Shown here: positions 18,901 to 63,772 of the stretch, one piece after another
Layout of the letters: the number at the start of each line of letters is the position of its first letter
Numbering within the stretch: the first letter of the stretch is position 1
Program-made: the position numbers and the translations under genes
Origin: Asterochloris sp. CNOR1
Taxonomy: Eukaryota; Chlorophyta; Trebouxiophyceae; Trebouxiales; Trebouxiaceae
NCBI GenBank assembly: GCA_963969365.1
Contig: OZ017747.1
Coordinates: forward strand, 3,968,001 to 4,032,000
Direction of reading: 5' to 3'
Length of the DNA: 64,000 nucleotides
Notes under the pieces: generated by a model
The model's input: the letters and a program-made list of their open reading frames with translations, nothing else
Told to the model about the DNA's origin: nothing
The model's database searches: none

Positions 18901-21900
18901 CGCCTCGTCTTCCACTCAGGCAAGCTTACCATGCTGAAGATTAACAAGCTTTCGGGAACATACATGACCAGGACTTTTGAGTAGGGTCGTCAGTGCATCT
19001 GGCTGGCTTGTATGTGGGGCCTTCCAGCCAGTCAGATCATCACACTGTCTCAGCACCAAACGGCTTGAGACTGCAGCGCATCACCTTCCTGCCTGGATGG
19101 TGAAGTTGATATCTGGTGTGCTGCAGGTCTCAGGCTCCTTCCAGAATCTGCCGGCAGGCCAGTGGGCGCTGCAGCTGCTGGTGGCAGGAGCAGGCTACGC
19201 CCTCATGCCGGCAGACGCCCAGCACACCAGCACCCTGCAGGCTACAAGCATTTCACCTTCCACTGGTGGCCTCTTTGGGGGCCTCACAGTGCAGGTTCAG
19301 GGCAGCGGTATCGATGGCACCAACAGCTGGCGGTCCAGGTGGGTTAGATTATAAGCGCAGCTGTGTCACCTCACATGCTCCTGGATATGCCATCCCACAC
19401 ATGAGCTGCACATGTGCTGCATGGACTACAAAGCATGCTAATCGCAAGCACCAGAACTTCTACAACCCCTGTGCGGCCTTTGTTTACCTTGCATATCCCA
19501 GCGTCTGGCAGCATAGAACCAGCGTCTGGCAGCAGATGACGCCCACTGTGCCGCTGCTGCAGCGTGACGGTGTGTGGGGTGCCCTGCGCCTTTGTGAGTG
19601 CCAGCTACAGCAGCTACGGCTGTACGCTGGGCCCTTTTCCAAACTCCGCACCTGCCAGTGGAGTAGCAGCGTGCGATGTGGTGCTGACAGTGGGGACTTC
19701 AACAGTGAGTCCCTGCTTCAGCTTCCTGTGCTGACTGATACCAGAGCTTCCGCCAGATGACTCAGCTATTGAGGAATGCATTGCATGTGCAGCTGGCCTG
19801 CCCAGGCCATGTTGTTCAAGAGTACATGCTGCAGCTGGAGGAGCACCAACCCAGACCTCGTAGCACAGAGTACCCTGAGGCGCATAGGAACAGCTGTTGT
19901 GCAGCCTGAGAGGGCCTGCAGTGAAGCAGTGGCTCCTCATGCAGGTCACAGTGTCTCAAGCCTTCCTGCTCACTGCAGCCCTGTGGCAGCCTGAGACCTC
20001 ATGTGGCACTCTGCAGGGTGCCTGCATAGTGTAGGTCACAGTGCCGTAAGCCCTCCTGCTCACTGCAGCCCTGTGACAGCCTGAGAACTCCATGCAGCAC
20101 TCTGCAGGCCACCCTGCCCGCGGCATTCACCTTCAACAACACCCTGAGCCCCATAGTCACCTCAGTGGAGCCCGCCTACGGCAGCTCCAGCGGCGGCACT
20201 CTCATCACGCTGACAGGCTCTGCCCTGGCCCCCCTGGCTGCCAGGCCAGGTGGTGCGGTCATCCTGGAGACCGACTTCTTCCAGACGGCTGTGCAGATCG
20301 GGGGCGTGCCTTGCCAGGTCAGCATGGGTCCCCAAACACTCGAACCACAGGTTTGAATGCCCCAGCTGCTGCTTAGCTCAGGACATGCTGCAGCAACGTT
20401 GTGCACACTGCTGGGCTGGTCAGCCACGCAACAGTGTGGCTTGGCGCAAAACTCCCTGGCGCTCTCAGACCTGCAGTCCCTTGTTGGTCTCAGGCCGGGG
20501 TGGCATGGCGCCTGCCCAGCCCTGCTGCAGCCCACTGCCCTGTCCTGGCTGCCATGCAGGTGCTGAGCAGCAACCTCACGGCACTGACCTGCGCCGTGAC
20601 CCCCAAGACATCCGCCTATGACCCTGCAGCCGGCATGACAGTCCAGGTCGCCTACAGCGGGGCAGCCCAGCTGCAGGCCCCTGGCTATGTATACGCTGAC
20701 AGTTGGCTGGAGCCCAGTTCCTGGCCAGCAGGGTTGCCTGAGGAAGGAGAGGCTGTGCTGGTGCCTGAGGGTGTGACCCTGGTCGTCAACAGCAGCCTGG
20801 CTCCCGTGGGAGCACTTGTTGTCAGGGGAGGCCTTCTGCTGGACCCACAGGAGGTGCGCTGTGGTGCGGCGTCCTGTGCAGCAGGGAGCCCAGCAGGGGC
20901 TTGGTGCCTGCTGCTGCGCTGCATCTCTCTTACTTGCTGCCTGAGGGGGAAGTTCCTGTGCTGGGGTCGCAGTAGCACCCCTGATTGAGACTAGCAGCCT
21001 GGCTGACATGGCAGCCCTTCGCATCGGAGGAGGCCTTCTGCTGGACCCACATTTGGTGTGCTGTTATGTGGTACTGCGTGAAGCTTACAGCAGCATGGGC
21101 AGGCCCACCAGGCGCAGGCCCACCAGGCGCAGGCCCACCAGGAAGGCATGTGCATTGCGCCAATGGGCAAAGGAAGCAGCTTGAGACAGGAGTGGCAGCC
21201 AGCACCTGTCATGGCCCCTGCCAATGGGGGCCACCATAGCGCAGCCCTAGTGTGCGGAACATGTTGTGCTCGAAAATGTCCGGTGCCCTGCAGAAGCCAT
21301 GCACTGCTCATGACGCATCAACTGCTGCCTGCAGGACCTGACCCTGCAGGCCACTCACATTGTCTTGGACGGCCCCAACTCCTTCCTCCGCTGCCAGAGC
21401 AGTCAGCAGACTGCAGCACACACAGTGTCCATTGTTCTCGAGGCTGCAGGGGACTTGAGTCTGGGTAAGCTGCTGCCTCGCTGAGCGCTATGCCGGGCCT
21501 CCGTGAAGGGAGGCGCCATGTGTGACCTGAGGCACCTGGTCCTCCTCGTCTGGCTGACAGCTGTGTACTGGGACCCTGTGTGGCCTGGCATACGGCGCTG
21601 TGCTGGCGACCCGTCCACTTCTGTGCTTCTGGTGGGCATGCATCCCTGGAGTCACCTGGGCAGGCCGGCTTTGGCACCTCGCCACACTGAAGGGCAGCTG
21701 CCAAGCTGGCAAGCATGCGCTCTGCGTGTTGACAGGTGGCGCCTGTGTGCTACAGGGGGCAGGACATTTCCAGGGGGCACGCTGACAGTGGCTGGGGGCA
21801 GCCTGCAGCTGGAGGGGCCTGCACAGGAACCAGTCTGGACCACGGTGGCAGAGGACGCCCCAGTCGGATCCACGCTGCTGCAGCTGGCACAGGCGGCCAA

Positions 21901-24532: not shown

Positions 24533-25246
24533 CCAGCACTGTGCCCACCACATGAGAGCCCCACACTGTATTGTGAATGCCCACAATAAGCACTGAATGA
24601 ATTTGCTTGCACTCTTGCTGATTACATGTGCATTTGCTGAAACAGGAGCGCACTGTCATGAGGCCATGGGTGGAGCCATGCAATTGGCATTTCAGTTGCA
24701 TTGCTACTCAAACGTCATTGACAACTTCAATAAAATCAAGGCCAACAGTCAACGGCAGGTGGCAGGCCAGACCCTGAGAGGACTGGGTGAAAGAGGGGTC
24801 GTGGCAGCCACTGCTGCCGGTCCTACAGGAGGGAGGTTTGTCCCGGTGCACCCAGTGTGCGCCAGACTGATAGCATTTCAGTACGGACTTTGGAAGACTG
24901 AGAATCAGAACGTGGGGCCAGCAGGCTGGTGCAGGGACTGTGCTGGTTGTGCTTGTGGTGAGGGTGCGGACTGTGGAATCGCACCGAGGGGAAGCCAGGC
25001 TGTCTGGTATATATGGTTATGGCTAGAAGGGGTATATGCGGAGCACGCACAAAAGGTCAAGGAGGCTGCCACAGAGATCAATGTCAGGAAGTTTCGAACA
25101 GGGGTTCTGTCTTCTCACTGCTGCTGCTGCTGGCCGGCGTCCTGCTCAGAAAGAGAGGCCGGGGTCGCCAAGCCTTCCTCATGTACAGTCTGCGCGGGCA
25201 GCGGGGCTGCTCTGTTCAAACTGATTGGTTGCAAAGCGGCCCCTTC
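24533..25246. other. Convergent intergenic region with possible C-terminal exon
   Basis: This lies between the tentative end of the IPT/G8 gene and the stop of the minus-strand Pro-rich gene. Most of it lacks coding character and it is relatively AT-rich in 24530-24760. Near 25105-25160 the plus strand can encode VFSLLLLLAGVLLRKRGRG, which looks like a membrane span followed by a basic stop-transfer segment. It could be a last exon that anchors the upstream protein, but I could not connect it by phase. Confidence 0.3.
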
Positions 25247-27814: not shown

Positions 27815-28123
27815 AACACCACCCCGTGGCCTCCTTGCCTCACTTGCCTGCAGCAGGGAGGGGCGCACACATTAGTTGGCGGTGGTTAGCACATGGGTCA
27901 AACCTGCCACCTGTCCACCATCAGGATCAAGATCTGCACCTGATGGGCCCCTGGCACCCCATCTGCTCATACACAAGGGCATGCAGGGATCTGGAGGGCC
28001 CTGCGCAGGCCACTGATGCCTGCTTGGGCAGTTGGAGGGTGCCTGATGCATGACCAAGCCCTTGTGCAGCAAGTGCTAAAAGGCAGGCAAACAGCCTGTG
28101 CTCACCCAACAGGGCTCCCTCAC

Positions 28124-32100: not shown

Positions 32101-35100
32101 TCTGTGTCAGCAGCCTGGTAATGCATGAGACAGCGTGCAGGGCGCTTGCTAGCGACAGGGGTAGACAGAGATGCACCTGCAGGAGAGGGGAGCAGGCTTG
32201 AGGGCAGCCAAAACTGGTCCTTGCCGGAAGGAAGCTGTTGTGCTTGGCACTGCACAGTGTCACCAATGCCTTGCTTGTGGGGTGTGCAGTCATGCCCGCT
32301 GCAAGCAGCCTGGCAGCACGGAAGCTACTGCTCTTGAGCGGTCCTGTGTTACTCAAGATAGGGCCTCTGCCACGGGCCCGTCAGCTGCTCGGCTTCTGGC
32401 ACCCAGGCGGCAGCCTGGTCTGCAGATGACAAGCAGCGGGCTGTTTGTCCAGACAGGCTGCCAACACCCCACCGCCACACTCCTGCAGCAGCTGCGGCAC
32501 CACGGCCATCTGTGGTGCCCTCAATGACGAGGGCTGCACAGCTTGGGCAAACTCCGCAGAGCTCTGTGCAGTCAGAGGGCGCTTGCGAGCATGCTGGCGC
32601 ACAACTTCAGCAGCTGCCGCCCACCTGTGATGTCCTCAGTGACGATCAGCAGGGGCTGGTTGATGCGGGTCATCTGCTCCAGGACAGGAAGGATCTCCTT
32701 GATTGTCTCAATCTTCTGGTCAGCCACCAGCACACGAGCGTTGTCCATCTCCACCAACATGCGCTCCTGCACCCGCAGGGCATTCAGTCAAGGCAGGGCA
32801 TGTTGCCATTTGTTTTTGTTTGGCTGCTGTGGAGGGCGCCCTCAGGCTGTCACTCCTGGCTCTCTCCTGGGCCCCTGCCAGCAAAGTTACAAGCAACTGC
32901 TGCACCCCAGCCATGTGAACTGTGCTGCGTCTGGCCTTGACAAAGAGGCATTGTTAGATACCCCTAGCATGCGCTCCTGCATCACGCCAGGCAGCCTCTG
33001 GGTCACGGCTGTACTGTGGGTGCTCCTGCCCTGCTAGGGAAGGGGATTCCCTGAGGTGTCACCCTGTTTAGTCTCAAGTTGCCTGGGGGGCAACAGCTGC
33101 AGCCAGGATCATCTAGCCGGTCCCTGCCTGTAGGGCCACACCACAATGGCTGTGTGCAGTGGCCGAGTTGCTGACGTGCAGACTGCCTGCTGGTCCACAT
33201 ACACGACACCAGAAGGCCTGAAGCTGAAGCCAGGCCATGCCTGGAATCCAACCTCTCAGCACAAGCCACTGCATGCAGCCATCCATGTGCCCAGCTCACA
33301 TTGTTGGTGATGAACTGGGGGGAGATGTATCCCCGGTCGATCTCCATGCCCTCCTGCACATCGACAGTCGTCTCCAAGCCGCGGGACTCCTCAATGGACA
33401 GCACGCCATCGGCGCCCACCTGGTCCAGGGCCTCCGCGATCAGGGAGCCAATGAGCTCATCATTGCCAGCCGAGATGGTGGCAATGCTCTGCAGGCAGCA
33501 CGGCGGGTGTGTGAGTGGAGGGCAGGACGGCAGACAGGGCAGTGGTCAGCAAGTGCTGCCTGAGATGGCGGCGGGCTTCGGTGACAGGCAGCAGAAATAA
33601 GGGATGAGCTGGCAGGCCCCGAGAGGGAGACAGTGTGTGTGCGTCTGTGCAGGCGCAAAACAGACTGTACATTGCTTGATAGGGATTGGGGGTTGCTCAG
33701 AGGAGCGATGGCGATGCTCTGACAGGGGGCACAGCTATCAGGACGCTTGGGCAGGCAGTCCCCATGATGTGTAGGGCAGATGGAAGCTGTCACATATGAT
33801 GTGCAGGAGCCCCAGAGTTGGGGCTTGCGGGTGAGGCCCTTGTCAATTGGCGGAGAGGATGACACTATACTGCACAGGAGGGTCGGCAGTCACGACACTG
33901 GTTGGCAACTGATGCCCCACATGGCAGCCACCAGGCGCAGCCCACCTTGATGTCTTTGGTGCCGCTGATCTGGGTGGCATTCTCACGCAGCTTCTTGACC
34001 AGGAAGGCGCAGGTCTTGTCCAGGCCCTTCTTCACGGCAACTGGGTTGGCGCCGGCGCTGACAGCCTGGAGCCCAAAGTGGATCATCTCGCGGGCCAGCA
34101 CAGAGGCAGTGGTGGTGCCATCCCCAGCTGCATCGTTTGTCCGGCCAGCCACCTGCAGAGAGAAGGGGCTGTCAGAGGGAGGGCACTGGAGCAGTTGTCA
34201 TGCATCAACATGAAGGGAGCTGAAAGGAATGACAGAGGGGCTGGTGCCAGTTGCAGTGCTGCGTAATGGCAGCTGAAGGTGGAGGAAGAGTAGCTGAGTT
34301 TCTCAGCTGAGCAAATACTGTCAAACATGGGTAAGAACGTGTACTGAACAGCACATGTCCTTGCAGGCTGGAGACCAGACACACAGCAGCAAAGCAGCCG
34401 TCTTGCCACAAAGAGCATGTGAGGTCTGTATGGAGCACAGCTGCTCTGGGAATGCAGAACACCAGTGTATGCTGCCACGCCTCAAGCCGCCCTACTGACC
34501 TCCTTGATGAGCTGGGCGCCAGCATTCTCAAAGGGATCCTCCAGCTCGATGGCACGCGCAATGGTGACCCCATCGTTGATGACCTGCAATGGGGCGGTCG
34601 CTCAGGCATTGTAACAGGCACAGACCCCACAGCTGTGGATGTAACCTTTACGGCCACCAGCCCAGCAGCAGCTGTCCCTGTGGCAGTTTGCAGACATGGC
34701 ACGGCGTCTCAAGGCTTGCTGGTGCAGCAGCAGCCTCTGAGGTGGGCTCCAGCCCAGCAGTACCAAGCTGCAGAGACAATTGCAGGTTGCTCTGCGGCCG
34801 AGCCCACCTTGGGCACGCCATATGACTGCTCCAGCACCACATTGCGGCCTGCAGCAGCAGAGTGCGTCCTCCAGCATGATGCAAGGAAAGCGAGTGCGCG
34901 GGGAGCTTAGCATCCCGTCGGCTTCAGCATGCGCACAAGGCAGGGACACAAGCTGTGAGCCAGACACTGTGCTGACCCCTGCAGCCCAGCCAGACCCCAT
35001 AGAGACACATCAGAGCTGCAGCTATGCTTGCAATGCTGGCCACAGGGCACAGTTGCACAGCGGGCACGCTCTGATGCCCGGCAACCCACAAGCACCACAC

Positions 35101-37149: not shown

Positions 37150-39397
37150 ATGGATGCAGCAGCAGAGGCTCGTTGGGAAGCAATTCTGCGTTTGTTTGCC
37201 CAGCAAAACACATGGCAGCTTGTGGGCGACAAGCCTTTGGGCTGGGGTGCCTATGGCACAGTTGTGAGGGCCCAACTGCCAGCCCCTGCTCATGAGGGCC
37301 AAGCAACTCATGCAAGCCAGGAAGGGTCTGGCGAGACAGCGCAGGCTCAGGCGCAGGAGGACTTTGCCATCAAGTTTGTGCGGCCCTCTGACAGCAGCCA
37401 AGCGTTGCACATCATTGGGGCAGCCGTCCGCAACGAGGTGCTGCTCCAGACGCTAGTGGTGCACCATCACATCATTGGGTGAGCTGGGCACACACTGGTT
37501 GCATGCTTCGATGTATCGATCCTGCCTGCACTCTGTGTGCTGGGCTCACTCAATGTGATGAAGTCTGCTGCTTCCTGAGCCACACCGATGGCTCCAGATG
37601 CCAGCAATAGCCATACGCTTGGTGCCCAACAGCCACCAGAGCTCACAGCCATACATGCTCAACTTGCATCTTTGACGTCAGCCTGAACATCATCTGTTGT
37701 CAGGCGGTGTGGTTGCTTCAGACACGCTATGCGCAGGCCTTGGGCCTCATGCAGCAGGCTTTACCAGACCATGAAAATTGCCCTCACGCTGCTAGCAGGT
37801 TGCGGGAAGTCATTGTCTTTGAAGACATGCTGGGTCTGAAGCTCGAGTTTGCCGCCCATGGCAACATGCTGCGCCGATACGAGGCAGCCAAGGCGCTGGC
37901 AAGCCACCGGTACGGCCCTGGTAGCCATGGTCTGCTGTGGAGCGAGGAGGCTGCCCGAGAGATCGTCCGGCCCCTGATTGCCGCGCTGCACCACTGTCAC
38001 CACTTGCGTGTCGTGCACAGGTGCGCCTACCTGCCTTGCTGCCCGTCTAGGCAGGTGCTTGGATGCTACTGTGCACCAGTGCCATGCTGGAGGGCTGTGC
38101 CAGCTGGCTGCCCTGCAGCAGGTGCAGATCGAGTGCTGCAGCTGACATTGTTCACCTGTGTGCCAGGCTGCACCAGGCAGGTGCCTTGATGGTTCTGCTG
38201 CACCACTGCCACAGCCTGCGTGTTGTGCACAGGTCTAGCCTGGTTGCTCTGGCTGATGGGGCTACTGCAGAGCAATGCAGCAGCAGCTGGTTTGGCTGTG
38301 CCACATAGACATGCTTACGACACGAGGCTGTGCTGCATGCTCTGCCTTCCAGAATCAATTGGGCTGTGACAGGCTGCAGCGAGTCCTTGTTCAGGGCAGC
38401 CCAACTCTTGACACAGCAGCATTGACATGGGCTGCATTGTCCTGCAGGGACATAAAGCTAGACAACATGCTGGTGGCAGATGACTGGCTACAGCAGCCCC
38501 CTAGGCGCGTGCTGAAGCTGTGCGACTTTGGCTTTGCCGAGCAGCTGCCCGCCGGCAGCAACAATGTGCAGCACTGCAAGGGAACGCCTCCTTACATGGG
38601 TGAGGCCACCTGCGCTGGGGCAGCAGACTTGTGCTCAGCACCGGCACCCGTTCAAGGCGCTGCTGTGACTGGCTGGAAGCCCAGAGCACCTTCCTGCCTG
38701 CACAGCATTCCTAGTGTCCCTCAGAGCTGCTGTGGCTGGCATGCAGTCATGAAAGCACAGGCTGCCCGCTCAGCGCCTGGCTGGCTCAACACCCTTGCTT
38801 CAGCCGGCTGACTGTCCTCAGCACGGCAATCAGCTGCCCTTGCTTTGCAGCCGTCTTGACCCTCAGTGTGCCCCAACTCATGTTGTGACCTGCTGCAGCT
38901 GGGTTGACCCTCACTGCTGGTGTTGTGGGTGCCCTGCAGCCCCTGAGGTCATCACTGCGCTGCGCACTGGTGCCTATGATGGCTTCAAGGCGGATGTGTG
39001 GGCTGTTGGCGTCGTCCTGCACCTTCTGTTGGCTGGGCACCGCCCCTTCAAGTCTGGGCGCACAGTTCCCCCGGCAAACGAACTGTTGTATGAGGGCTGG
39101 GAGGCCTGCTTAAGACCCTATCAGCTCCCTGGCAACTGCCAGCTAACGCCCCACTGCCAGTCCATCCTGTTTGAGATGCTGGCGGCAGACCCTAGACACA
39201 GGCCATCCCTCTCTGAGCTCATTGGACGCCCTTGGTTCACAAAGGGGAGCGAGCAGCATGGCGATTTTGCCCGTGGCGTTGTTCAACTGAGCCTGTCTCT
39301 GCAGCACAGGCTGCAGCGGAATCATGCCAGCCTGGTGCAGAACCAGCAGGGCATCGACCTGTTGCTGACAGAAATGGGCCTGACTGTAAGACAATAA
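37150..39397 (+). CDS. Serine/threonine protein kinase, likely CaMK/SnRK-like fold
   Basis: Transfers phosphate from ATP to Ser/Thr of unknown targets. Four exons: 37150-37478, 37682-38020, 38448-38599, 38940-39397, giving 425 residues. Visible subdomains are the glycine loop PLGWGAYGTVV (from residue 29), the ATP-binding Lys in DFAIKFV, and the alpha-C Glu in RNEVLLQ. The catalytic loop HRDIKLDNML (about 222-231), DFGFA (about 249-253), GTPPYMAPEV and DVWAVGVVLHLLLAGHRPF follow. It ends the kinase core with HRPSLSELIGRPWF and a 60-residue tail. A 20-25 residue insertion (ALPDHENCPHAASRLRE) sits in the N-lobe before VFEDM. The exon 2 start uses an acceptor that keeps phase through LNIICCQAVWLLQ, so that region is less certain. 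The ATG at 37150 is the first in frame, but the frame is open 186 bases upstream. Confidence 0.88.
37976..38232 (+). repeat. Exon-end plus donor copy in kinase intron
   Basis: The end of kinase exon 2 (37976-38020, encoding LHHCHHLRVVHR) is repeated at 38188-38232, encoding LHHCHSLRVVHR and again followed by GT. Offset is 212 bases. The copies differ at about a quarter of positions, but the reading frame and the HR of the catalytic loop are kept. Confidence 0.9.
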
Positions 39398-39627
39398 TAA
39401 CCCTGCTGTGACCTGATGGCCCTTCCCTCTGTCATTTTTGCTTGCAACGACTTTCATGAACAGCTCACAGGCCATAATGATAACATAGCCACGAAGTACC
39501 TGACACTCACCAGAACACAAGCAGTGTGCGCTAACTTGAACATTGAAACAGGACACTGACTTCAGAGGTATCTAGCATACAATTCTGGCATACTTCAGAC
39601 CACATCTAAGAATCAGGGGCCTTCAGC

Positions 39628-44300: not shown

Positions 44301-47300
44301 CTGTGGCTGAGCAGGAAGGTGGCCATGCTGTCACGCTCTGTACTGGAGGATGTGCTGCAGATGCGCTAGCCTGCATATCGCAGCCATCCATACTGAACCC
44401 AAGCCATAATGAAGCCCTTCAGAACAGCACAAAAGCTGTCGGGGCGATGTGGTTCTTTGTGGCTGTGCAGGTGCAGGGCTACCTGAAGGATGTGCGAGCT
44501 TCAGGCAGCAGTGCTACCCCCGCCGTGAATTTGTCTGAGATCCCTCCTGAGCTGAACAGCATCACCACAGGTGCACTCACATATGAGTCCCAACCAAAGG
44601 AGTCTCTAAGTTCACTCTATCACAAGCATTGAGGCTCCAACTTGTGGGAAGTGAAGTGCGTAAGCAGCGTGCTCCATTAGAGCCTGCACGCCTGCACAAT
44701 AACATGCTTCAGTCCAGCTTTGGGTGCTGCAGTTGGGCAGTTCAGGGAGCTGGTTCGCATGATGGAGGCACAGGCAGCCCTGAAGGAGAAAGTCATCAAG
44801 GGCATACGACTGCACAAGGTGAGCACCCTGCATCAGACTCCTGAGAGCAGCGCGGCCTGTTGTCCAAGACAGGTCCTGTCTCACTCCTGCAGCACTCTCG
44901 ATGATGCAAATCAGGCTGACCAGGCCTGATCCCTGCAGGTGTGCAGTGTCTGCGCCCCCCCTGGCAGCATCATGTCCTGCCAAGAGTGGAACCCGTCTGC
45001 CTGACATCCTGCAACAGGGTTCCTGGCTTCTCAAGTCTGCAAGTCTGGCGTTCCCTGCCTGAGACACACGGCCACAGGCCGCACCTTTCTGTCTTTGCCT
45101 TGGCCGCATGCAAGAACTGATGTGGCTTAGCTGTCCATCCTTTTGTCTTCTGCTGCTGCAGGAATACATCGATGCCTGTGATCTGTATGCTGCAGACAGC
45201 CTCTGCTGGCTGGCTTTGGGTGCTTCACATTCTCTGGCCACCTGGTGCTGCAGGGATATGATGATGCCCGCGACCATGTCTTCTCCGCTGTGGAGCCGGA
45301 TGACATTGTGCGAGTGTGGCAGCCTGTACAGCCAGTGGGTGCCCTGGTGGCTGTGCTGTACATGGCTGAGGACGGCCTGGCCAAGCTGCAGCAGGGTCCA
45401 GTGGGTAAGTGTCAGGCAGGCTGCGTCAGGGTGCAGAAAGTCAGTGTGCAAAGCTGCAGCAGGGTCCAGTGGGTAATTGGCGGCAGGTTGCGTGAGGGCT
45501 GCATGGGTCAAGATTGCATGGGCGAACCAGTCCCTGCAGCTCAGTGCTGCACTTTGCACCAGCTTCATGCTGCTTCTGTGCCTGCAAAAGCCACAAGTTA
45601 TGCTGGTGCTGTGAGGTGTGTGTAGCGCCTGCTTGGGATGCAGCCTGAAGCCAAAGTGCCGAGCTGCACATGAGGTGGGGCATGCCTGCTGCACACTGGC
45701 TGCTGCAGTCACCTGACTGCAGCTGGTGCTGAGCACGCTGGACACGCACCTGTGCCTGCCTGTGCAGTGCTGGTGGCGCTGCAGCAGCAGGGCTCCCAGC
45801 TCGTCCCCGAGCTGCTGCCCGCGGCCAGCGTCCCTGCAGCCGCCCAACTGATCACCTACTACCACAGCACAGCGGTGACAGCTTGGCACAAACCGGGGCA
45901 CCCTGGGTGGTCACGCTGGGAGGAGGTGGGCTCACCCGCGCTGGCCAAGGCATTCCAGGGGCACACCCAGCTGCCCCGCCTCATCCTGCCAGGTGCCCAC
46001 GCCCAGTATGGGCAGCCGCTGGACGGCCTGGCAGGACCACTCCTGGCAGGCCAGGCGGCGGGGCAGCAGGGTGTGGGGGCAAGTAGAGCCCACCAGCAGG
46101 CTGAAGGCCTGCTGCGACGCAACTCGCAGCAGGAGAGCCACGGGCAGCGGCACCGCCAGCAGCCGCAGCAACAGCAACCCCTGGGAGGGCCCAGCTTCCC
46201 TGGCGCTCAGTCCAGCCCCCTCATTGGGGACATGGTGGCAGGTTACGGCTTGCTGGGGGATGCTCCCCCACCCCAGCAGCGGACAGGACTGCCGCCTGTG
46301 GGGTGGCCCGTCAAGCAGGAGCCACGGGGAGGTCCGCCCGAGCTGCAGGCGTCCTCCATTGCGGCATTCCTAGAGGGCGACGGAAACAGCGTGTTGGATG
46401 CGCTCTTAGGTGGGTCGTGGTGGAGTCCACACAAAGTGCTTTGCGGTCTGGCTGCAGACTGCCCTTCTTTGTGAGCCCTGTTGCAGGGTGGCCACAATCT
46501 TTGTTTGGCAGGCTGGTGCCTTGAGCCATGGCAGCACTTTGCTGTCACACCTGTGCACTCAGGCATGTCACGGAGCACTGGCCAGTCCCCAGCCTTTGGG
46601 AGGGGCCCACCTCCGTCTGCCATCTCCCAGTAAAGTGCTGAGTGGTGCCCATGACAGATACATGTGTGCTGCGCCGCAGAGGGCAGCGCCAGCGGGCTGC
46701 AGATGCACCAATCCAGCGACCAGCTGTCCTCCATCTTTCTGCCCTCCCTCAGCCTGTCCCAGCAGCAGGAAACCCGACAGCAGCCGCCCCCGCAGCAGCC
46801 AAACCCACAGGCCTCTTCGGCTGCTGCCCAGCAGCCCGTGGTGGGCCTGTGGGACCAGCAGGGCAGCCCCCCAATGTCTGACACATTCGGCCCCCTTGAC
46901 AGCCACCCCCAGCAGAGCAACAGGAAGCGCCCCTCTGAGAGCAATGCCTTCAGTGCCTCAATCGAGGCGACAGCAGCCAAGCGCGGGGAGGCCTCAGGTG
47001 CCCAGCCAGACCAGCAGGGGGGGCCCCACCAGCGGCGCTCCTCCCTGCATGACACAGACGCCCTGCTGCTAGACGGCCAGCTTGGCATGCTGGAAAACGA
47101 CTGGCAGCTGGCCAAGAGCCTGAATGCCATGTCTGTGGAGGATGGCACCCAGCAGAAGGGCGCCGCACCGGGGCAGCAGGACAAGGGGCAGCCATCTGGG
47201 CGAGGCACCCCGCAGCCCAATCCCGAGGACTCCAATGGACAGCAGCAGCGGCAAGAGGGGGTGCGGCGCCTGGCACTGTCAGGGCTGGATCTGCCGCTTC

Positions 47301-47739
47301 CTAGCATGAATGCGCAGCAGGTGCACGCCGGGCAGCACCAGATTGGGGTGCCGCCAACCTTCAGGCCGCCAGCTGTAGCAGGTGGTGGCTGCACTTAATG
47401 TCTGCCCACAGACCCTTCCTTCTTGCATGGAAAACTCCAGGCCACCAGCTGTGGCAGTTGCATGGGTGCACTTGACGCTGACTGCAGACCCATCCTTGTG
47501 GCGTGCAGACCCTCACACAGCTTAGCTGCATGCTATCATCATGCAGCAGGGCAACCGGTTGCAACACAATGTGAATCCTAGCTGCATAGGACTCCTGCAG
47601 CCTTCCACAAGGTGCACCACCCTTCCTGTGACATGGTGCACTGGCAGACTTGGCCGCCGGAATTGCGCAGCTGAGCCTGGCTGATGTCCTTTGTGCCTGC
47701 TGTGCAGAGGATGACTGGGCGCTAGGAGACTTCGGCTAG
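41314..47739 (+). CDS. Putative nuclear regulator, Cys cluster N-terminal, Gln-rich C-terminal; family unknown
   Basis: Thirteen exons agree in phase: 41314-41343, 41542-41726, 42153-42378, 42804-42908, 43236-43346, 43487-43648, 44057-44146, 44471-44570, 44718-44818, 45254-45404, 45768-46409, 46680-47381, 47708-47739, giving 878 residues. The first 110 residues hold a Cys pattern (DCRHIGCNEATCKLC, then RHNRARVC; C-x4-C-x4-C-x2-C-x7-C) that may bind zinc. A beta-rich region follows (LALQCTISNNSKGKPLLVLS, FQLLAIAV, CISTPFRVTHSRT, LPHVNDPVGVIKSVG), then a helical stretch (GQFRELVRMMEAQAALKEK). The last 400 residues are Gln/Pro/Gly-rich with a SUMO-type VKQEP and end EDDWALGDFG. The middle faintly recalls plant CBP60-type DNA-binding domains, but I do not claim homology. 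If the last intron is retained, translation stops at 47398. Confidence 0.72.
45162..45275 (+). repeat. Acceptor plus exon-start copy, 92 bases upstream of the used exon
   Basis: The used acceptor gtgctgcag|GGATATGATGATGCCCG (exon from 45254) has a decayed partner gctgctgcag|GAATACATCGATGCCTG at 45162, 92 bases upstream in the intron. Both are open for a short distance. Confidence 0.7.
45383..45500 (+). repeat. Exon-end plus donor duplicated 68 bases downstream
   Basis: The end of exon 45254-45404 and its donor (aagctgcagcagggtccagt followed by GG|GTAAGT, from 45383) recur at 45451 as the same 20 bases followed by GG|GTAATT. The similarity runs on into the intron (ggcaggctgcgt versus ggcaggttgcgt). 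Two potential donors result. Confidence 0.92.
47360..47515 (+). repeat. Exon-end copy, 76 bases downstream, near the regulator 3' end
   Basis: The segment aggccgccagctgtagcag at the end of exon 46680-47381 recurs at about 47439 as aggccaccagctgtggcag. The following 50 bases (including cagaccctt / cagacccatcctt) are also related. This supports the view that 47381/47382 is an exon edge. Confidence 0.8.
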
Positions 47740-50193: not shown

Positions 50194-53100
50194 TCAGTGC
50201 CGGGTGCGCCTTGTGCGTGTGGCAGGGCCTGACGACACTTCCGGCTTAGCAGCCTCAGCGCTAGCAGCAGTGCCGCGATGGCCATGCCCCTCAGCTGGGG
50301 AGACTGTTCCTCGGCCGCGGCTGCCCTCAGCTGCTGCTGCGGCAGGGGATGCACTGGCACGACCCCTACGTCGCCTGTCAGGTGGCGCCTGGGCAGTGTC
50401 TGCAGGAGACTCGGCCCTGCGCTTGCGCCCAGATGCTGCCTCTGCACGGGGCTGCTGGTCCTGCAGACAGAGAGAACCTGGCTCAGGAGATTCAGTGTCC
50501 CGCTGAGCTGTGATTCTGCAGAAAGGCACGGGCAGACTGATGTTGGCCCAAGCCAGGCACAGGATAGCACCTCTTTGAGACAGGCGACCTAAGCTGCATG
50601 ACAGCATTGCACTTGTGACACAATATATGAAGCCATGCTGTAGTGATGGCCAACTGAAGGCGCAGGATATGGCTGCCAGCCAAGCACGCACTGGTGGCAG
50701 GCCCTCTTCCTCTTTCACAGCCGCCGCCTCTGTGCTGGCTGCCTGGAACGCAGCAACGCTGCCCTTCCCAACCTCAGCCGCCGTCTCCACAGGCGCGCCC
50801 TCTGCTGCGCCAGCAGCCTTGCGCCTCCTGCCAGCTGGGCCTGAGCTGCCCTTACCAGCGTCAGCTGCTGCAGCGTCAGCATCAGGGGCATCCACCTCTG
50901 CAGCCCCAGCTTCCCCAAGGCCTTCAGCCGCAGCAGCAGCCGCCGCTGGCGCCTGGCCAGCCCCTGCTGCTGGCGGGTCTGCACCGTCCACATCCATGGG
51001 GGCAGGGGCATCTGCTGCGTTGGCTGCAGCTGCCACCTCAGTCGTGTCTGCAAAGAAACAAGGCAGACGTAACAGCTTACCTCACTGTTCATAACGAGCA
51101 AAAGCAGATGCTGACATGCAGGCACCGTCCAACAGCTTGACTGAGAGTTCTCAGCGGCAAAGCTGTCACCTCCTGAGGACCGCTGTCTGTCAGCCCAGCA
51201 AGCAGCCCTCAGTGTGAGGGCCTTGCTCATAGCAGCAGACGCTCAGACACGCCATCTGAGCCTTGCGCATACAGTCCAGAGGGAGTGCCCCAGAAGCCCC
51301 ACAGCCAATCAGCTGCTGACCCCAGCGCTGATGCGCACATAGGCCATCTCTACAAATTCCAGCAGCGGGCATTACAAGCAGGAAGCACTCCTGGCAGGTG
51401 GGGGAGATGACTGTACCTCTAGATTAAAATCAGGCCTGGCCGCCAGCAGGACACAGTTGGGTGCATCAGCGCCAACACTGCCACCCCGCAAGCAGGGTTG
51501 AAGCTCATTCCACGCGGCAGATGTGCAGCCCACAGCCACTTGCTGCAGTGTTGCTCCCAACGCTCACCCCTGACGGGAGACTGCGCCTCTGAGGCCAGAT
51601 CTGTCGCCCCATCCAGCCCCTCCACCTCCAGCGAAATCTCATCCGCTGCCCCCTGCTTCGCTGCTGACGGCGAGGCCAGACTGCTCCTGCCACTGGCCTG
51701 CATTTGGGTGGATGCAAAGTGTTGGCCAGGGCGCTGAGCGCAGCGACGAGTCTCTGTGTGAGGGCAGCAGGGCGTCCTGCAGAGTGGGGTGTCCAGCAAG
51801 GTTGCAGGCGCATGCGCGCTGCACAAAGCTTAGCCGGCATTGTGCTGTGTCCCTGCGGTGCCTGCCAGTCCCCCGCCTGTGCATGTGACCAGTGCGATCT
51901 CCAGCTGACAATCAGCGACAATGGAATGCGCTGGCACCAGCAGTGGGGGCATCAGCAATCTGCAGAGGGGCCATCTTGCACCCCTTGTCAGTGCAGTTCA
52001 CAACCTTAACACCACCTCCACAAGCTCAACATCTTGCAGAAGGGCTCGGCCCAGCCTGCTCACCCCTGCCAGTGCAGGTGACAAGAGGTTGTCACCTTTG
52101 AGGATGGGACCAGCAAGGCTTGACTCAGCCTATTCATCCTGCCACAGTGCAGCTCCTCAGTACACAACCAGACAAACAACAGACGCATTTATCACCAGAG
52201 GCTTGCCGCAGTACAGACCACAACCTCACCTGCAGCAGTGGGGCCAGCACCCAGTAGACAGTCTCATCCCGTCCTGTTCTTCACTGCCAGCAGAGTTTCC
52301 TGCTATGGTTAGCACCAATCCAACATACCAGCGCCTGCAGCGGCTTGCCAGTGCCACTCCCGACCCACAATCACCAGCACAAGCCGAATTCCACCTGCGG
52401 TGGTGGGGCCAGCATCTTGCGGACGGGGCCCTCCGGCAGGCGCGCCTTGACCGCCTCGCTGACAGAATCACGGAAGAGGGCGGCGTACAGGCACTCCAGG
52501 TTGCCCTCCGTCTCCTTCTGCTGCCACGTCAGCATCCAGAGCTTCACAGCCAGGCGCCGGGCCTTGCGCCGCAGGGCGGTCTTGTACAGCAGGTCGTTCT
52601 TTTTCTGCAGGAGCACACGGCAGTGAGCACAGTGCCACACAGTGGATTGAGCTTCCTCTTGCACAGCAGGTCGTTCTTTTTCTGCAGGGCCAGGGGAGAG
52701 GCGGGCGCAGTCAGCACAGTGCCACACAGCGGGGGGCGCCTCTTCTGCCAGAGTCCCCGGGGGTTGCACACAAGAGCGTAATGTGGGCAGCAGGTTGACC
52801 CGGATCAGGCAGGTGAGGGGCTCATGGTACACTTGTCAGAGGAGGGCAGTCAGACCCAGGCCGCTGAGGAGCATGTAGCAGTGGGGGTTGAGGCCAGTGA
52901 GGCATCACTCGGTCAAAATCCCAAGACATGGCGCAAGACCACTGTGCTTCTCCTCGACACCCACAGCAGGATCACAGCCTGACCAAACAACCCCCTTGCC
53001 ACACAGACAAGAACAGCGTAAGCCTTTGAAGCTTGCTGTGTTCGCATTGAATGGCAGCAAAACCCAGCATAGGCCCCTGAAGCACAAAAGACAGCAAGTA

Positions 53101-57165: not shown

Positions 57166-58248
57166 AACAACGAGAGGGGGGGTGTGGGGCACTGTTAGAA
57201 GTAAAGTGCTTAAGACTTTCATGACTCGGTCAGGACCGTGACATGTCTGTGTGAGCCTTGGTATGGGAGCTCACCCGGGTCACAAACTGGAGCGAACCTA
57301 GATCACAAAGGCCCCAGGCTCTCAAACTTGTACCCACCGGCACCCTTGGGCTGCTGTGGGTCTTCCCATACGACGGCTGACACATGCTCACCTGCTGAAC
57401 ATCAAAATCCATGGATCTGCAGGTTTGTGGGCACCTTTGCTTGTGGGTTCCAGCAGGGCCGGAGGCTGTGCTAGCCTGGCATGTACTCAACAAGCTTGTA
57501 ATGGCTGCCCTGCTGCACTCCTCTGGCATGAAATGCTGTTCACTGATGTGCTCCATTGCCTTACACAGCATGCACCCCCTGCTTGTGCTGCCCTGCGCAC
57601 GGTGTCCTTCTGCAAGCAATGGGCTGAGTTGCTAGGCAACTGCCCTGCTGACACAGCCTGGTCCCTCATGCACCTTGCATTCTGGCATAGCATCAGCTTC
57701 ATGAGGCCAACGCATGCTGCGCTCAATGCTGCACTGTGACAGCGCATGAAGAGCTTCGTTTCCCTCAAGCTGCAGGCTTGCTGACAAGATAGACATGGTC
57801 CCTGTCTTGTTGTATGTCATGCAGCCTCCATGATGCAGCAAGCGAGGCCACCACTTATGCAGAGCATAGCAGAGGATCACTGTGATGATCCCTTCATCTA
57901 TACTCAGCCATAGTGGTGTACTTATTTGGTCACAATGGCAAACAGATTGCCAGATGTCAATTTAGCACCATATGCCTCACCTTGCTGCCCAAGTCCCTAG
58001 ACTCCTATGTGCCTCTAATGTATTTCCTCAACAGTAGTCATCATGGGCATGTGTTGCCATGGTATGCATTCATATGTATGGACTGTCTTTCAGATCTGCT
58101 GACAAAGCCAAATGTGGTTTTGCTGGAGGCCTTTGCAAGTCTAATCAAACAACGGCAGCTCTAGGAAAATGTCATAGTCACAATAGTCAGCACAACTTCA
58201 CGGGGAGTCTCCTCAGAAGAGCTGCTCTGAGTGAGAGAACTGCATATG
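57166..58248. other. Intergenic region between THOC1 and the ankyrin pseudogene
   Basis: No supported exon on either strand. 57790-58250 is clearly more AT-rich than the window average. The THOC1 promoter should lie near 57170-57400, where I see only a run of seven Gs at 57176-57182. Confidence 0.45.
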
Positions 58249-59262
58249 TCATCTCTGTTGCAACGACCTGAGCCCGCATAACTTGTCTGACAGGCAAGAA
58301 CACTCGCTGTTGTACAAGGTACAAAAATACACAGGGGCTAAGGTTGAGCCACTGGATCGAAGGAGACCAGTCACAGCACTCCTGGTAGGACCACCGAGGG
58401 CAAGGAGGTTGCTGTTGACAGCCCATTTCCAAAAGTTCAAGATGCTTGTAGACAGCTGCCCTGTGAGTCGTGTGGCTATCCCACTGGCATTCATGTTGGC
58501 GCAGCCACTTCAGAATGCTGAGGTTGCCACGCTCAGCAGGTGCACTGCAGACCGCTGGACCCCATTGACAGCCATTCTGATGGGCAACCTGCAGCACTGC
58601 CAGGTGGCTTTCTCTGGCTGCAGCCTCGCACGTGCGCCAGTCCAGGCACAGCCGTGCTGATGGGCCAACTGCAGCACTGCCAGGTGGCGTCCGCTTGCTG
58701 CAGCTTTGCACGTGCCTGAGTCCCAGGCACAGCCGTTCTGATGGGCAAACTGCAGCACTGCCAGGTGACCCCCTCCGGCTGCAGCCTCGCACGTGCTTGC
58801 GTCCCGGGCACAGCCGTGGTGCCGCGCCCATCTCAGCACCGCCAAGCACCCGTTCTGTGCGGCAGCTGCACAGGTGCGCTTATCCCAGTGGCAGCCCTGC
58901 TACCATGCCCACTGGAGCACTGCCAGGTGGCCCCCTCTGGCTGCAGCCTCGCACGTGCCTTTGCTCCAGACACAGCCGTGATGCCGTGCCCAGCTCAATG
59001 CCGTCAGCTGTCCATAGCGAGCAGCAGCTGAACAGGTGCGCTCGTCCCAGTAACAGCCCTGCTCCCATGCCCATTGGAGCACAGCCAAGCGGCCTTCTGA
59101 TGCTGCCGCAGGGCACGTAAGCTGGCTTTGAATAGCCTGTTGGCGCAACCACTGCAGCACTTCCAGGTGGCCTCCTCTGGCTGCCAAGCAGATGATCTGC
59201 TCACGTTGCAACCGATCAAGGCGGTGAGCCTCTGACTGCAGGACCTGCAGATCTTCAGCCAT
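58249..59262 (-). pseudogene. Ankyrin-type repeat protein, broken
   Basis: Starts at a clear ATG (MAEDLQVLQSEAHRLDRLQ) and runs without introns through about ten ankyrin-like units of 26-27 residues with the pattern G-x-LAVLQWA-x3-GC-x-W-x3-TC-x-AAA, for example AARGGHLAVLQWA. Three lesions interrupt it. An in-frame TAG at 58902-58900 stands where GAG is expected (WAW then QGCHWDKRTC). A one-base loss near 58643 moves the frame before DWRTCEAAARESHLAVLQ. A one-base gain near 58433 moves it again before WAVNSN. Read across these, the frame ends at 58249. Such repeats are common in algae, amoebae and large DNA viruses; nothing else here is viral. Sequencing error could account for one lesion, hardly for three. 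Confidence 0.7.
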
Positions 59263-59580
59263 GGCGGCGTTTCAACGCCTGCAAGAGCATCATGAAGTGT
59301 GTATGAAAGTGGGGTTTCATCATTGACCGTACTTGAGCCATTTGACGAGGCGCTACACATGCAATTGGCCTGACCCAGCACTCGCTGAGTGTTCAAACTC
59401 ATGATGTAGCGGCAAAGCCGTTTCCATTCTTGCTGAAGAGGTATCAGATAGGGGCATCAGCACCATAGGTGTTGCTTTACTGCAAGCCGCTTCTTTTGAC
59501 AAGAAAGGCACCTTCATGCTACCAAAAATAACGAGAAAGAAGACTGTCTCCATATTGTGAGCCTCCAAATGTGAGCCAGA

Positions 59581-61096
59581 TCAGTCCACAAACTCAATGA
59601 CAGCCATCTCTGCTGCATCGCCCCGCCTGAGTTGGATCTCAGCTGTGATCCTGGTGAAACCGCATTGCCGCTGGGCAAACCTCTCAGGGGCACCTTCAAA
59701 TAGGTTGGCCACGAGGTCCTTATCATAGATGTATGCCTGGGCCTGCATTGGGACTCAAACTGGGTCAGCAAGAGTGTGGTGTGCTGGACCTGACGAGTGC
59801 AGAGCGATCCATTCTCAAGGTTGAGTGCGTGCTAAGCGCAGCAGCCGACAAGGCTGGGAGCACAGGGGCTGCGCTAGCTGGTTGCTGGGCATCAGCAGAA
59901 TGTTTGGCTGCCTCTGACGCCTACCATGCTCGCTGTAGTACACCCTGAGGCTTGTCGCAGCTCATGCCTTCGCAAAGCTGACACAAGGCCAGTTGCAAGC
60001 CATGCTTGCACAGCTGGCATGGTGCCTGGCACTGTCCAGCTTTGCTGCACAGTACAAAGCGGCAAGCGTCACAGTAAGCGCACCTGCCGCCGGGCGTGGA
60101 GCGTGCCCCTTTTGGCTAAACCAATCATTTTGTCCACAGGCTTTCGCATAGCTTTGGCCTTGATCTGCATCAGGCAGCAGCTGTCAGCACCTGGCAGCTT
60201 GAGACTGCTGGGCAGCTTGAGGATTACTTGCCTAAGCCTTTAGGAGCAGCAGACAGCCAGCAGGCAGCAGGTGTCCATGCCTGGTGGCTTGCAAGTGCTC
60301 CACAGTTGAGGGCAGCAAAACTGTCGGCAGGTCACCAGCTGCCGGCGCATGGCAGCTTGTGAGCAGCTTCAGAATTGGCGAAGCAACACAGCAGCAAGCA
60401 GGGCAGCAACTTCCCCAATGCGTGTTGAACAGAGGTAAGCTGGAGAGTATGCACCCCTGAGTGCTGCCTGCCGTGCATAAAGACGACGACATAGCCACAG
60501 CTGACGTAGCAAGAGCACAAAGCCTGCCTCTTCTCAGACTACACCCGCCCTCAGTGCCCGGCAAGTTTCTTGCCACCAGGCCTCTTCGCAAGGCTTGTCT
60601 GTTATCAGATCTCCACGAGATACAGAAGAGCTGGCTTTCCTGCCATGCCGTGCTGGCAGCTCGAGGTGCCGCACCTTGGTCGTCCGAATCTTGCCATGAC
60701 GAATCAGCTCTGTAACAAGGCCTCTGAGTAGCGCCTTGCGCTGGTCTGCTGGCCTACCAAGCCGGGCCTTCCTGACGCCATGCCTCATAGCAAACCAGAG
60801 GCTGCCATTCTGGGGCAGCAAGCTCATGCTGTTACTGGTACAACACCCTGCAAGCATGAGAGGCGACTGCGGCTCAGCCCTGCCTGTATGAAGACATTGA
60901 TAGCAGCAAGCTCTGCCTGTGGCTTTCGGCACCTGACCTCCACAGACTCACCTGGAAAGCTCACACCTAGCCTCTGAGACCGTGCCATGCCCTGGTACTG
61001 AGGCATGAGGCGCATCTGTGGGGCGGCAGCTGCTCGTGGCCTGGGTATCGTACAGGGCAGTGCAGCCTGCAGGGCACCCATGGTAAAGACGGACAT
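59581..61096 (-). CDS. Plastid 50S ribosomal protein bL17
   Basis: Component of the bacterial-type large ribosomal subunit near the exit tunnel, here nuclear-encoded and targeted to the plastid. Four exons in phase 0: 61096-60965, 60809-60675, 60164-60084, 59742-59581, giving 169 residues. The first 48 residues form a basic, Ser/Ala/Met-rich leader ([20 protein letters not shown]). The mature protein starts [20 protein letters not shown] and continues [31 protein letters not shown] and [19 protein letters not shown]. It ends [21 protein letters not shown] and the insertion-free core match plant plastid L17 rather than a mitochondrial form. The ATG is 100 bases from that of the divergent aminotransferase gene. 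The exon 3 donor (GTGCGC) is weak but the join is supported by family alignment. Confidence 0.93.
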
Positions 61097-61196
61097 GGCT
61101 TACTGTGGTGGTCCTTGGCATCCAGCAACCTAAAAGTCTACATGACACAATGTCTCAAACTTAGCCTGACTGCATCTCACGGGATCCTCAGTCAAG
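61097..61196. promoter_or_regulatory. 100-bp shared divergent promoter region
   Basis: Exactly 100 bases separate the initiation codons of plastid bL17 (minus) and histidinol-phosphate aminotransferase (plus). It is AT-richer than the flanks. No paired TATA boxes are visible. Both transcripts must start here or inside the opposite gene. Confidence 0.6.
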
Positions 61197-63772
61197 ATGC
61201 ACCTCGCACCAGCAGGTCGATCGGTGTGCATTATGAGTATGCCAATTGCTGGTCATCAGGCAGCACCAAGACCCACGGCAGCTGCTCCCCTCTCAGCCAT
61301 TGCTGAGCGCCTCCAGTCAGGGCAGCAGGCCTCCACCAGTGGCAGCTCATTCATCAGGCCTCACCTCAGGGACATGGACCCCTACACCCCCATCCTGCCC
61401 TTTGAGGTGCTCAGCCTGCAGCTGGGCCGCCGGCCAGAAGACATTGTCAAGCTGGACGCAAATGAGAACCCCTATGGGCCCCCACCTGAGGTGCTGCAGG
61501 CATTGGGCAGCATGCAGTTCCCAAACATCTACCCTGACCCCCAGAGCCGGAAGCTTAGGGAGGCCCTCTCACAGCTCACTGGTGTCCCCATTGAGCACTT
61601 TTTGGTGAGGCAGCTCAACTTGCACATTGTCGACCTGCCAGTGGCAGATATGCAAGGCCCTGCATAGCTCTCAGGAGCCCTGCCTGACGCTAGGCAGTGT
61701 ACCGATGATGGTGTCCTCAATGCTCCTGTTGGCATGCTGCGGTGCCAAGCTGCACCTGGACCTGCACATGAACCTGCTCAATCTTCAGGCCGCACAGCAG
61801 TGGGCAGAATTGCTGTTGACCCTGATTTACAGGCTGACTGCAGCCTAGCGTGGGCTTTCTCCAGTGCACAGTGCGGCTGATACTGACATGTTTGCCTCTG
61901 ATCTTTATCTTTACTGGTCAACTCCTGCAGGTGGGTTGCGGCGCCGATGAGCTGATAGACCTGCTCATGCGCTGCATCCTGGACCCTGGGGACAGCATTG
62001 TAGACTGCCCTCCCACCTTCACCATGTACGCCTTTGACGCCGCTGTCAATGATGCTCAAGTGATAACCGTGCCCCGCCGGGAGCACTTCCAGTTGGACGT
62101 GGCAGGTGAACCGATGCTGTGGCCAGCTTGCTTCTGCTGGGCCCACATGGCCCTTGCGCAGTTGTCATGCCACTCATTCAATCTGGCGCGTGCGGGATGA
62201 CTAAGCTATGGTGCAGTGCCTCATGACCTCTTTGGCAAAGGGAGACTTTGGTCTCACAATTCTTTGTCAAGTGTAAGCTCACCAGGCGTCGCTGCCTGCT
62301 GTTGAGCCGTCCTGTCCCCATGAAGCACTGCAGGCACTTTGACATTCAGCCGCAAGCAGGACACATATCAGCTGCTCATGCTGTGCCGTGCCGACCCTCA
62401 TGCTCCTCTGCGCAGGCCATGACCTCCCTGTGCTGTGCAGGCATTGCTGGCGCGGTGCTGTGGCGATGCTCCTAAACCGCATTCTCTCCACCTCACTGCC
62501 ATCCCTCGCCGGCAAACCCCTGGCCTGCGCAGGCATCATAGCCGCAGGCAGCAGCTCTGGCGGTTTTCCGGCGGTTTTCCCGAGCTATCCCTTGAACCCT
62601 GCCAGACCTATGCGGATGTAGCTCTCTGCCCTGTGCAGGCATCACATCAGCAGTGCGGCAGCACCGCCGCAAGGCAGTCTTCCTGACCTCCCCCACACAG
62701 GCAGCTAAACAGCTGCCCTGCATTATGTGCAGGCATCACGTCTGCGGTGGAGCTGCACCGCCCTAAGGCGGTCTTCCTGACCTCGCCCAACAACCCTGAC
62801 GGCAGCCTCATCGCTGAGGCAGACCTGCTGGCAGTGCTGCGGCTGCCCGTGCTGGTGGTGCTGGATGAGGCCTACATTGAATTTGCAGAGGAGCCCTCGC
62901 GCATGGACTGGGTGCAGCTGCATGACAACCTTGTGGTGCTGCGCACCTTCAGCAAGAGCGCGGGACTGGCAGGCATTCGTGTGAGTGGGGTTGTTTCTGG
63001 TGCCTTCTGGGGGCTGGCATGTGGGTGGCTGTTGGGGCGTTGTAGGTGGCATTGCTATACAGCATGGGTGGAAAGGCATGACAAACTGGTGGTGCTGCAC
63101 ACCAGTAACGACATGGTGGTGTCAGCAGGCATCTGGGGGGGTAGTTTGGTGACTGCCTTCTCAGGTACTTTCTCAGATAACTTGGTGAGGCAGCTGGCTA
63201 TCTGGTCAGGCCTGGGCGGGCTTGCAGTGGGTGTTGATGATCCTCACGCGGCCTTGTTGTGCACCAAATCACTACGTGGTGGTCCTGCACACCTTTAGCA
63301 GGAGCGCAGGGCTGATGGAGTGGAGTGAGTGCTTGGCTGCTTGCATAGCATAGCTGGCCTTGGGTAGGTTGCTTTGTCTGGCTCAGTCAGCCGGCCTTGT
63401 TGTAATTCATCAGGTCGCTTTGCAGCGTCTGTGCTGTTTGTAGCCTGCATGAAGGGCGTCACTTGGCTGCCGACATGAGCACCTCAGACTTTCCCGACGT
63501 CAGACTGTCAGCGCTGCTGCTGCTGCTGCAGTCCGCTGCCATAAGGGTCTGAGGACCTTCAAACAGTACTTTCTGGGATCGCGCCCCACTCGTGTCCCCA
63601 GCTTGCCCTGTGCTACTGCTGACTGCTTGAGCATCCGTAACTGCAGGTGGGCTATGGTGCCTTCCCTCTCAGCATTGTGGAGTACCTGTGGCGGGCCAAG
63701 CAGCCCTACAACGTGTCAGCAGCGTCAGAGATAGCAGCATGTGCTGCCCTGACTAATATGTCGTACCTTCAG
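61197..63772 (+). CDS. Histidinol-phosphate aminotransferase, 3' end outside window
   Basis: PLP enzyme of histidine synthesis: imidazole-acetol phosphate plus glutamate to histidinol phosphate, plastidial in plants. Four exons seen: 61197-61604, 61931-62105, 62733-62980, 63647-63772; more must follow past the right edge. Motifs: [91 protein letters not shown] with the PLP-pairing Asp, [12 protein letters not shown] with the Schiff-base Lys, then [20 protein letters not shown]. About 50 leader residues rich in Ser, Ala, Gln and Arg fit a transit peptide; a second in-frame ATG is at 61233. Both introns flanking exon 3 carry decayed copies of its ends. Confidence 0.95.
62441..62800 (+). repeat. 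Four-unit array of acceptor plus exon-start copies, about 95-bp period
   Basis: Units begin at 62441, 62533, 62639 and 62733, each directly after gcag and each starting GCATY. The last is the real exon 3 start. The third is close to it (aaggcagtcttcctgacctc versus aaggcggtcttcctgacctc) and the first two are more decayed. Spacings are 92, 106 and 94 bases. Confidence 0.85.
62912..63335 (+). repeat. Copies of the aminotransferase exon 3 end within the next intron
   Basis: The exon end encoding [20 protein letters not shown] (from 62921) is echoed about 156 bases downstream (63077, readable as [20 protein letters not shown]). A further copy about 345 bases downstream (near 63270-63330) is readable as [16 protein letters not shown]. 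In the last copy the PLP lysine is arginine. Neither is needed for the gene. Confidence 0.85.

Follow-up and report, generated by a model that had tools for sequence, protein, structure and literature searches.

Local tandem duplications in the genes and introns of an alga, probably the source of exon-edge copies in introns

The window, a stretch of 64,000 nucleotides from Asterochloris sp. CNOR1 (C2:3968001-4032000), carries predicted genes for a protein with G8 and TIG domains, the chaperonin CPN60A, a kinase, a protein here called the regulator, THOC1 and the aminotransferase HisC, and in each of these genes an intron holds sequence similar to a neighbouring splice junction. Twelve sites, listed in Table 1, were matched to those of an earlier note on this DNA, which had reported splice junctions copied into their own introns; THOC1 and the aminotransferase had been named there without coordinates, and their assignment to sites was made in this analysis. 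The copies were found at the places described, ten of the twelve with a score of at least 16, and only those at the acceptor edges of CPN60A and of the regulator exon 45254-45404 are weak. The G8/TIG site at 19939-20107, taken earlier for the copy of an exon edge, is a real duplication, but it consists of intron sequence up to the acceptor and includes one exon base at most.

Table 1. Duplications at exon edges of named genes in the window, with ungapped score, paired start positions in brackets where given, and alignment.
Feature	Span (strand)	Unit or offset	Copies and gene context	Score and match
G8/TIG gene, acceptor duplication	19940..20108 (+)	unit ~90 bp	copies 19940-20017 and 20030-20108; 3' intron end with acceptor; exon start 20108	45.6 (19940/20030); 89% over 61 bp; TRF period 90
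G8/TIG gene, donor duplication	20655..21071 (+)	unit ~203-224 bp	spans donor 20853/20854; ~200 bp of exon copied into intron (20879-21071)	40.2 (20777/20979); 71% over 193 bp, 6 gaps
CPN60A, acceptor-edge copy, weak	32751..32981 (-)	offset 210	exon 32625-32766, backed by chaperonin alignment; copy 32961-32981	14.4 (32751/32961)
Kinase, donor-edge copy	37948..38248 (+)	offset 212-217	exon 37799-38020 into intron 38021-38447	27.0 (37985/38197); 77% over 83 bp, 4 gaps
Regulator, acceptor-edge copy, weak	45136..45273 (+)	offset 92	exon 45254-45404	15.2 (45136/45228)
Regulator, donor duplication	45380..45498 (+)	unit 68 bp	spans donor after 45404; intronic copy from 45448	27.6 (45380/45448); 94% over 32 bp; gapped 88% over 52 bp, one gap
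Regulator, donor duplication	47356..47505 (+)	unit 76 bp	spans donor after 47381; copy has TT instead of GT	18.0 (47356/47432); gapped 76% over 75 bp
THOC1, donor-edge copy	52227..52414 (-)	offset 165	exon 52395-52604	16.4 (52227/52392)
THOC1, acceptor-edge duplication	52580..52688 (-)	unit 77 bp	spans acceptor edge of exon 52395-52604	29.8 (52580/52657); 97% over 32 bp; second block of unit seen by eye
HisC, acceptor-edge duplication, upstream	62620..62789 (+)	unit 91-94 bp	exon 62733-62980	42.0 (62632/62726); 83% over 76 bp, 2 gaps
HisC, donor-side exon segment copy	62909..63103 (+)	offset 156	into intron 62981-63646	23.6 (62909/63065); 82% over 39 bp
HisC, donor-side segment, second copy	62922..63314 (+)	offset 346		25.0 (62922/63268); 79% over 47 bp

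The sequence analysed amounts to 314 kb, made up of the window, 200 kb of contig C1 and 50 kb of contig C3, from a genome of 56.4 Mb in 21 contigs. Gene models were ab initio, from a self-trained exon-intron model and predicted from sequence alone; two earlier models merged genes, and the second and looser of them was retained for a robustness check. A few very small predicted exons were omitted in joining exons, such as one of 3 bases (38119-38121) within the kinase intron. The model gave 634 introns, with a GT donor in 632 of them, donors often reading GTGAGC, GTGAGT or GTGAGG and acceptors mostly TGCAG (CTGCAG in 352 of the 634) across the 314 kb. Reuse of the TGCAG motif could raise the number of short chance matches at acceptors. 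For the named genes, the predicted HisC fragment aligns without gaps to Coccomyxa across 272 residues, and among the best 120 of 7281 relatives Coccomyxa (76%), Elliptochloris (75%) and Klebsormidium (73%) rank near the top, none of those listed exceeding 78%. Residues 6-324 of the 325 in the CPN60 model align with bacterial chaperonins, the kinase domain is continuous over the junction both by domain match and by protein alignment, and THOC1, TIG and G8 domains were detected in the predicted proteins. A Pfam search with the regulator protein gave no match, and its exon edges are those of the gene model. With the exception of the regulator, the exon edges at the named sites thus come from gene models whose proteins align well, and these models appear credible.

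Ungapped direct repeats were scanned for with scores of +1/-1.2, offsets of 15-614 and a threshold of at least 16, and 218 were found in the 314 kb, compared with 6, 4 and 4 in three control bands of the same sequence (offsets 3000-3599, 6000-6599 and 9000-9599). Once collapsed they make up 130 loci, of which the window holds 25 (39.1 per 100 kb), C1 71 (35.5) and C3 34 (68.0), so the pattern, which the earlier note had presented as one of this window, is no peculiarity of it. In the window the 25 direct loci (offsets 15-614) compare with 3 inverted loci within 1200-base stretches, roughly the chance level when judged by the control bands. The duplications are accordingly local and direct and are present in all three sampled stretches, where they occur in exons, introns and intergenic DNA. 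Similarity by chance, from the biased composition of CAG/CTG-rich introns and TGCAG acceptors, might be invoked for weak hits such as that of CPN60A, which rest on the common TGCAG context, but with 4-6 hits at the control distances against 218, and none at score 16 in comparisons with other introns (below), it was rejected as a general explanation of scores of at least 16 and is given next to no probability here.

An event set of 110 duplications with offsets of 40-450 was compiled by reducing overlapping ones to the best per locus. After gapped alignment the median coverage of the unit by the match is 70%, with 44 of the 110 events reaching at least 80%; the head-to-tail arrangement is evident for these 44 with near-full units and is inferred for the remainder. 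Matches shorter than the unit would be given by decay as well as by copies that are not adjacent, and partial matches of this kind are to be expected once head-to-tail duplicates decay. Many duplications look short because indels split the decayed unit, as at the THOC1 acceptor edge, where a second block, judged by eye, follows the 32 bp block after an indel. Among 22 full-length units, several of which are protein repeats or arrays, the match length minus the unit, a measure of microhomology at the ends, ranged from -4 to 99. An example of the intron-internal class is the pair at window positions 1685-1814, with a unit of 56 bp and both copies inside a predicted intron (TRF, 92% matches at 1696-1804). 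The duplications appear to be unevenly distributed, repeated exon-intron sequence being dense at 112-125 kb of the C1 stretch (L013-L014) and at 7-23 kb of the C3 stretch (L022-L024).

Exon edges were compared with introns by means of 60-mers that take 40 bases from the exon and 20 from the intron, confined to the 238 of the 634 introns in which both flanking exons have at least 60 bp and a good coding score, and among these to introns of at least 90 bp. At a score of at least 16, 27 of the 462 junction 60-mers matched their own intron (donors 13/231, acceptors 14/231), whereas 2772 comparisons with other introns gave no such match; at score 14 the latter rate was 0.0007 per comparison. The enrichment of exon edges in their own introns over other introns, which the earlier note had anticipated, was therefore borne out. 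Among the 1093 60-mers taken from exon interiors, 3 matched a flanking intron. Of 1008 tiles cut from the introns themselves, 32 matched another part of the intron they came from (32 hits in 20 introns), and this, like the random distance of duplication centres from junctions described next, shows that duplication is not confined to exon edges. Duplications are common away from them, which goes largely against the proposal of the earlier note, for which equal frequency elsewhere had been named as the adverse outcome.

The distance from the centre of a duplication to the nearest junction did not differ from that of random points (KS p=0.91 and 0.70 for two sets of gene models). By class, 66 of the 110 events are exon-intron duplications (45.3 expected from placing the same units at random), 28 are intron-intron (34.1), 12 exon-exon (19.4) and 4 intergenic (11.3), so that intergenic duplications lie below expectation. 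The exon-exon units are divisible by three in only 4 of 12 cases, which points to some exon labels being wrong or to indels within exon-exon repeats. Exon-intron events make up 66 of the 94 exon-intron and intron-intron events (0.70), against an expected share of 0.57 (p=0.006). Because selection holds the exon copy, exon-intron pairs remained detectable in simulation for about 1.5 times as long as intron-intron pairs, and with this factor the expected share becomes 0.67 and the excess is gone (p=0.26). The looser gene model, with 72 exon-intron and 21 intron-intron events, gave p=0.01 and, with the same factor, p=0.28.

Such an excess is also what would be seen if duplication were directed to junctions, with splice sites, RNA-DNA structures or the motifs TGCAG/GGTG promoting breaks or slippage, and several tests lean that way. 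Junction 60-mers matched more often than intron tiles, at score 16 (27/462 vs 32/1008, p=0.013) as well as at score 20 (14/462 vs 9/1008, p=0.003), the rate ratio at score 16 being 1.84 compared with 0.75 under a simple uniform model. A test made before gapped alignment found the junction inside the match in 39 of 130 loci, compared with 29.5 (sd 4.1) by random placement, and within the region of the 238 introns there were 29 exon-intron and 17 intron-intron events, with 17.4 and 18.5 expected by placement of units or 21.1 and 15.2 by placement of matches. Simulations also returned fewer junction hits than observed: with implanted duplications the ratio of junction to tile hits was 0.21-0.24, against 0.84 in the data at score 16 and 2.0 at score 25. 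Counted per intron, the simulated junction share was 0.49-0.69 at score 16 over four settings and 0.50-0.65 at score 20, and the observed shares were 27/37 (0.73) and 14/21 (0.67). At score 16 an affected intron had on average 2.4-2.8 tile hits in the simulation and 1.6 in the data, so part of the mismatch lies in how completely intron-internal pairs have decayed. Against a directing role of junctions stand the duplication centres, no closer to junctions than random points, the loss of the event excess once detectability is allowed for, and the lack of any preferred size outside the window. Targeting is therefore regarded as unlikely, and the duplications are probably not aimed at junctions, a modest or weak real preference for them being possible. 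The distinct mode of intron growth acting at exon edges that was proposed earlier is not upheld, as the class counts fit uniform placement with slower decay of exon copies; a residual excess persists in some of the tests.

As to size, the loci scoring at least 18 numbered 75 per 100 bp of offset at 40-99, 50 at 100-199, 15 at 200-299, 10 at 300-399, 5 at 400-499 and 0.9 at 500-614, a distribution that is broad from 40 to about 200 and declines beyond. The preference for offsets near 70 and 93 that had been read from the window did not recur among the 90 events outside it, where offsets of 68-77 accounted for 4 events (flanking ten-base bands, 7 and 9) and offsets of 92-95 for 2 (flanking four-base bands, 4 and 2). 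The clusters at 68-77 and 92-95 in the window are best explained by the small number of sites.

The fate of the intronic copies was followed in 56 exon-edge hits scoring at least 15, in which mismatches numbered 94/490, 85/494 and 117/489 at codon positions 1, 2 and 3; the tally of codon positions and splice dinucleotides was restricted to introns of 80 bp and more. Third positions thus hold 39.5% of the mismatches (117/296), and by arithmetic from the constraint values of the simulation a neutral intronic copy should give a share of about 44%, and two coding copies one of 81%. The intronic copies look neutral in their decay. Splice dinucleotides were retained in 12 of 22 copies for the donor GT and in 11 of 15 for the acceptor AG, about what general identity predicts, in numbers too small to show a loss beyond drift. 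Translated in the exon frame, several copies do give credible protein sequence, stops in that frame occurring in only 2 of 25, and the upstream HisC copy and, by eye, the kinase copy are protein-like, as would be seen if the copies were used as mutually exclusive exons or alternative exon ends and kept by selection. However, the third-position share falls short of the constraint that two coding copies would impose, the splice dinucleotides are kept at about the level of general identity, and HisC aligns to a relative without the copies. Use as alternative exons was rejected on the share of 39.5% and is held to be very improbable, and the protein-like look is taken as the mark of moderately old exon copies.

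Duplication contributes measurably to intron length. At least one duplication was found in 42 of the 238 introns (45 by a looser overlap rule), and the duplication units total 5740 of 76959 intron bp (about 7.5%). Affected introns have a median length of 465.5 bp as against 270 bp, and longer introns being the larger target does not account for this, since length-proportional sampling gives a median of only 363 bp (95% range 313-426); the earlier suggestion that duplication lengthens introns thus finds support. The best reading is that head-to-tail duplications, mostly of about 40-200 bp, lengthen introns that already exist. Whether these could instead be by-products of intron birth, as in the model of Rogers, in which tandem duplication of exon segments bearing AGGT creates an intron, bears on how the earlier note is to be read; the mechanism is established elsewhere, according to the relevant passages of PMC3443670 and PMC4974935, but its predicted signature, matching surroundings of donor and acceptor displaced by exactly the length of the intron, was seen in none of the 634 introns at a score of at least 12. 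At a score of at least 10 it was seen in 2 of 634 (0.0032), compared with 0.0011 at shifted offsets. Recent gain of this type was hence rejected, and as an account of the copies it is exceedingly improbable, although traces of old gains would have faded; the introns grow and are not recognisably born in this way.

Taken together, these results make it likely that tandem duplications arise genome-wide with little regard to gene structure and that copies covering a junction persist as intronic fossils. A head-to-tail duplication, mostly of about 40-200 bp, would arise irrespective of gene structure, and where it covers a junction the outer copy of the exon edge would stay in use and the second copy would turn intronic, so that the intron gains one unit and the protein is presumably unchanged. 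The intronic copy would then drift neutrally and the exon copy be held by selection, and exon-edge pairs, with the roughly 1.5 times longer recognisability seen in simulation, would come to dominate what a reader notices. By analogy with other organisms, the initiating step is probably the repair of staggered or paired-nick breaks by fill-in synthesis and end joining. Paired-nick duplications occur in plants, and similar insertions in rice.

A further and rather doubtful reading is that small tandem duplication may be the main engine of intron lengthening here and that junction-spanning duplications are over-retained about 1.3-2 times above uniform placement, either buffered by splicing or by providing briefly spare splice sites. 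Intron length varies widely between lineages, and the causes are often sought in transposons. Each exon offers a reference copy by which a duplication can be dated. If over-retention should hold, the exon copies would form a dated fossil record, and the turnover of intron length could be measured from one genome. The comparison of exon edges with their own introns, with other-intron, interior and placement controls, is applicable to any annotated genome and would allow rates of intron growth to be compared.

The duplications are numerous examples of an already known kind of mutation, quantification being the added angle. In the tandem genomic duplication model of intron origin (Rogers 1989), outlined in parts of PMC3443670 and PMC4974935, a short head-to-tail duplication in a gene is likewise followed by splicing out of the extra copy, but there new introns are made, whereas in the alga existing ones grow. 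For the potato RdRp gene, PMC4974935 describes a duplication over an intron-exon boundary that made a new intron, and mentions that a different intron of the gene contains a duplication of 83 bp; the duplicated stretch crosses an intron-exon boundary as in the alga, where, in contrast, the second exon-edge copy becomes part of an intron already present and decays. Small tandem duplications are the commonest short (<100 bp) insertions of the human genome and contribute to genome expansion, and their formation by repair of staggered breaks with fill-in is reported for mammalian cells, according to PMC8355091; that system is one of induced breaks in mammalian cells, and the alga is known here from its DNA sequence. 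In the green algae Chlamydomonas and Volvox, introns are the densest in tandem repeats, which are more numerous near intron-exon junctions (PMC3887541), but the units are only 1-50 bp, and exon-edge copies are not treated in the parts of that paper dealing with these repeats. Among the matches listed in a search of open-licence literature, no title was noticed that dealt with introns growing longer through copies of exon edges.

One repeat array, at 58.4-59.3 kb of the window, was retained in the class totals of the 110 events and left out of the class counts made without the array, the codon tally, the counts of affected introns and the junction-distance test. At 58470-59262 (-) lies an ankyrin-like repeat gene with units of 81/162 bp and a match to Ank_4 (E=1.6e-5), placed on the plus strand by the gene model. 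It has an in-frame stop near 58902 and changes of frame beyond, and is a decayed or intron-bearing copy.
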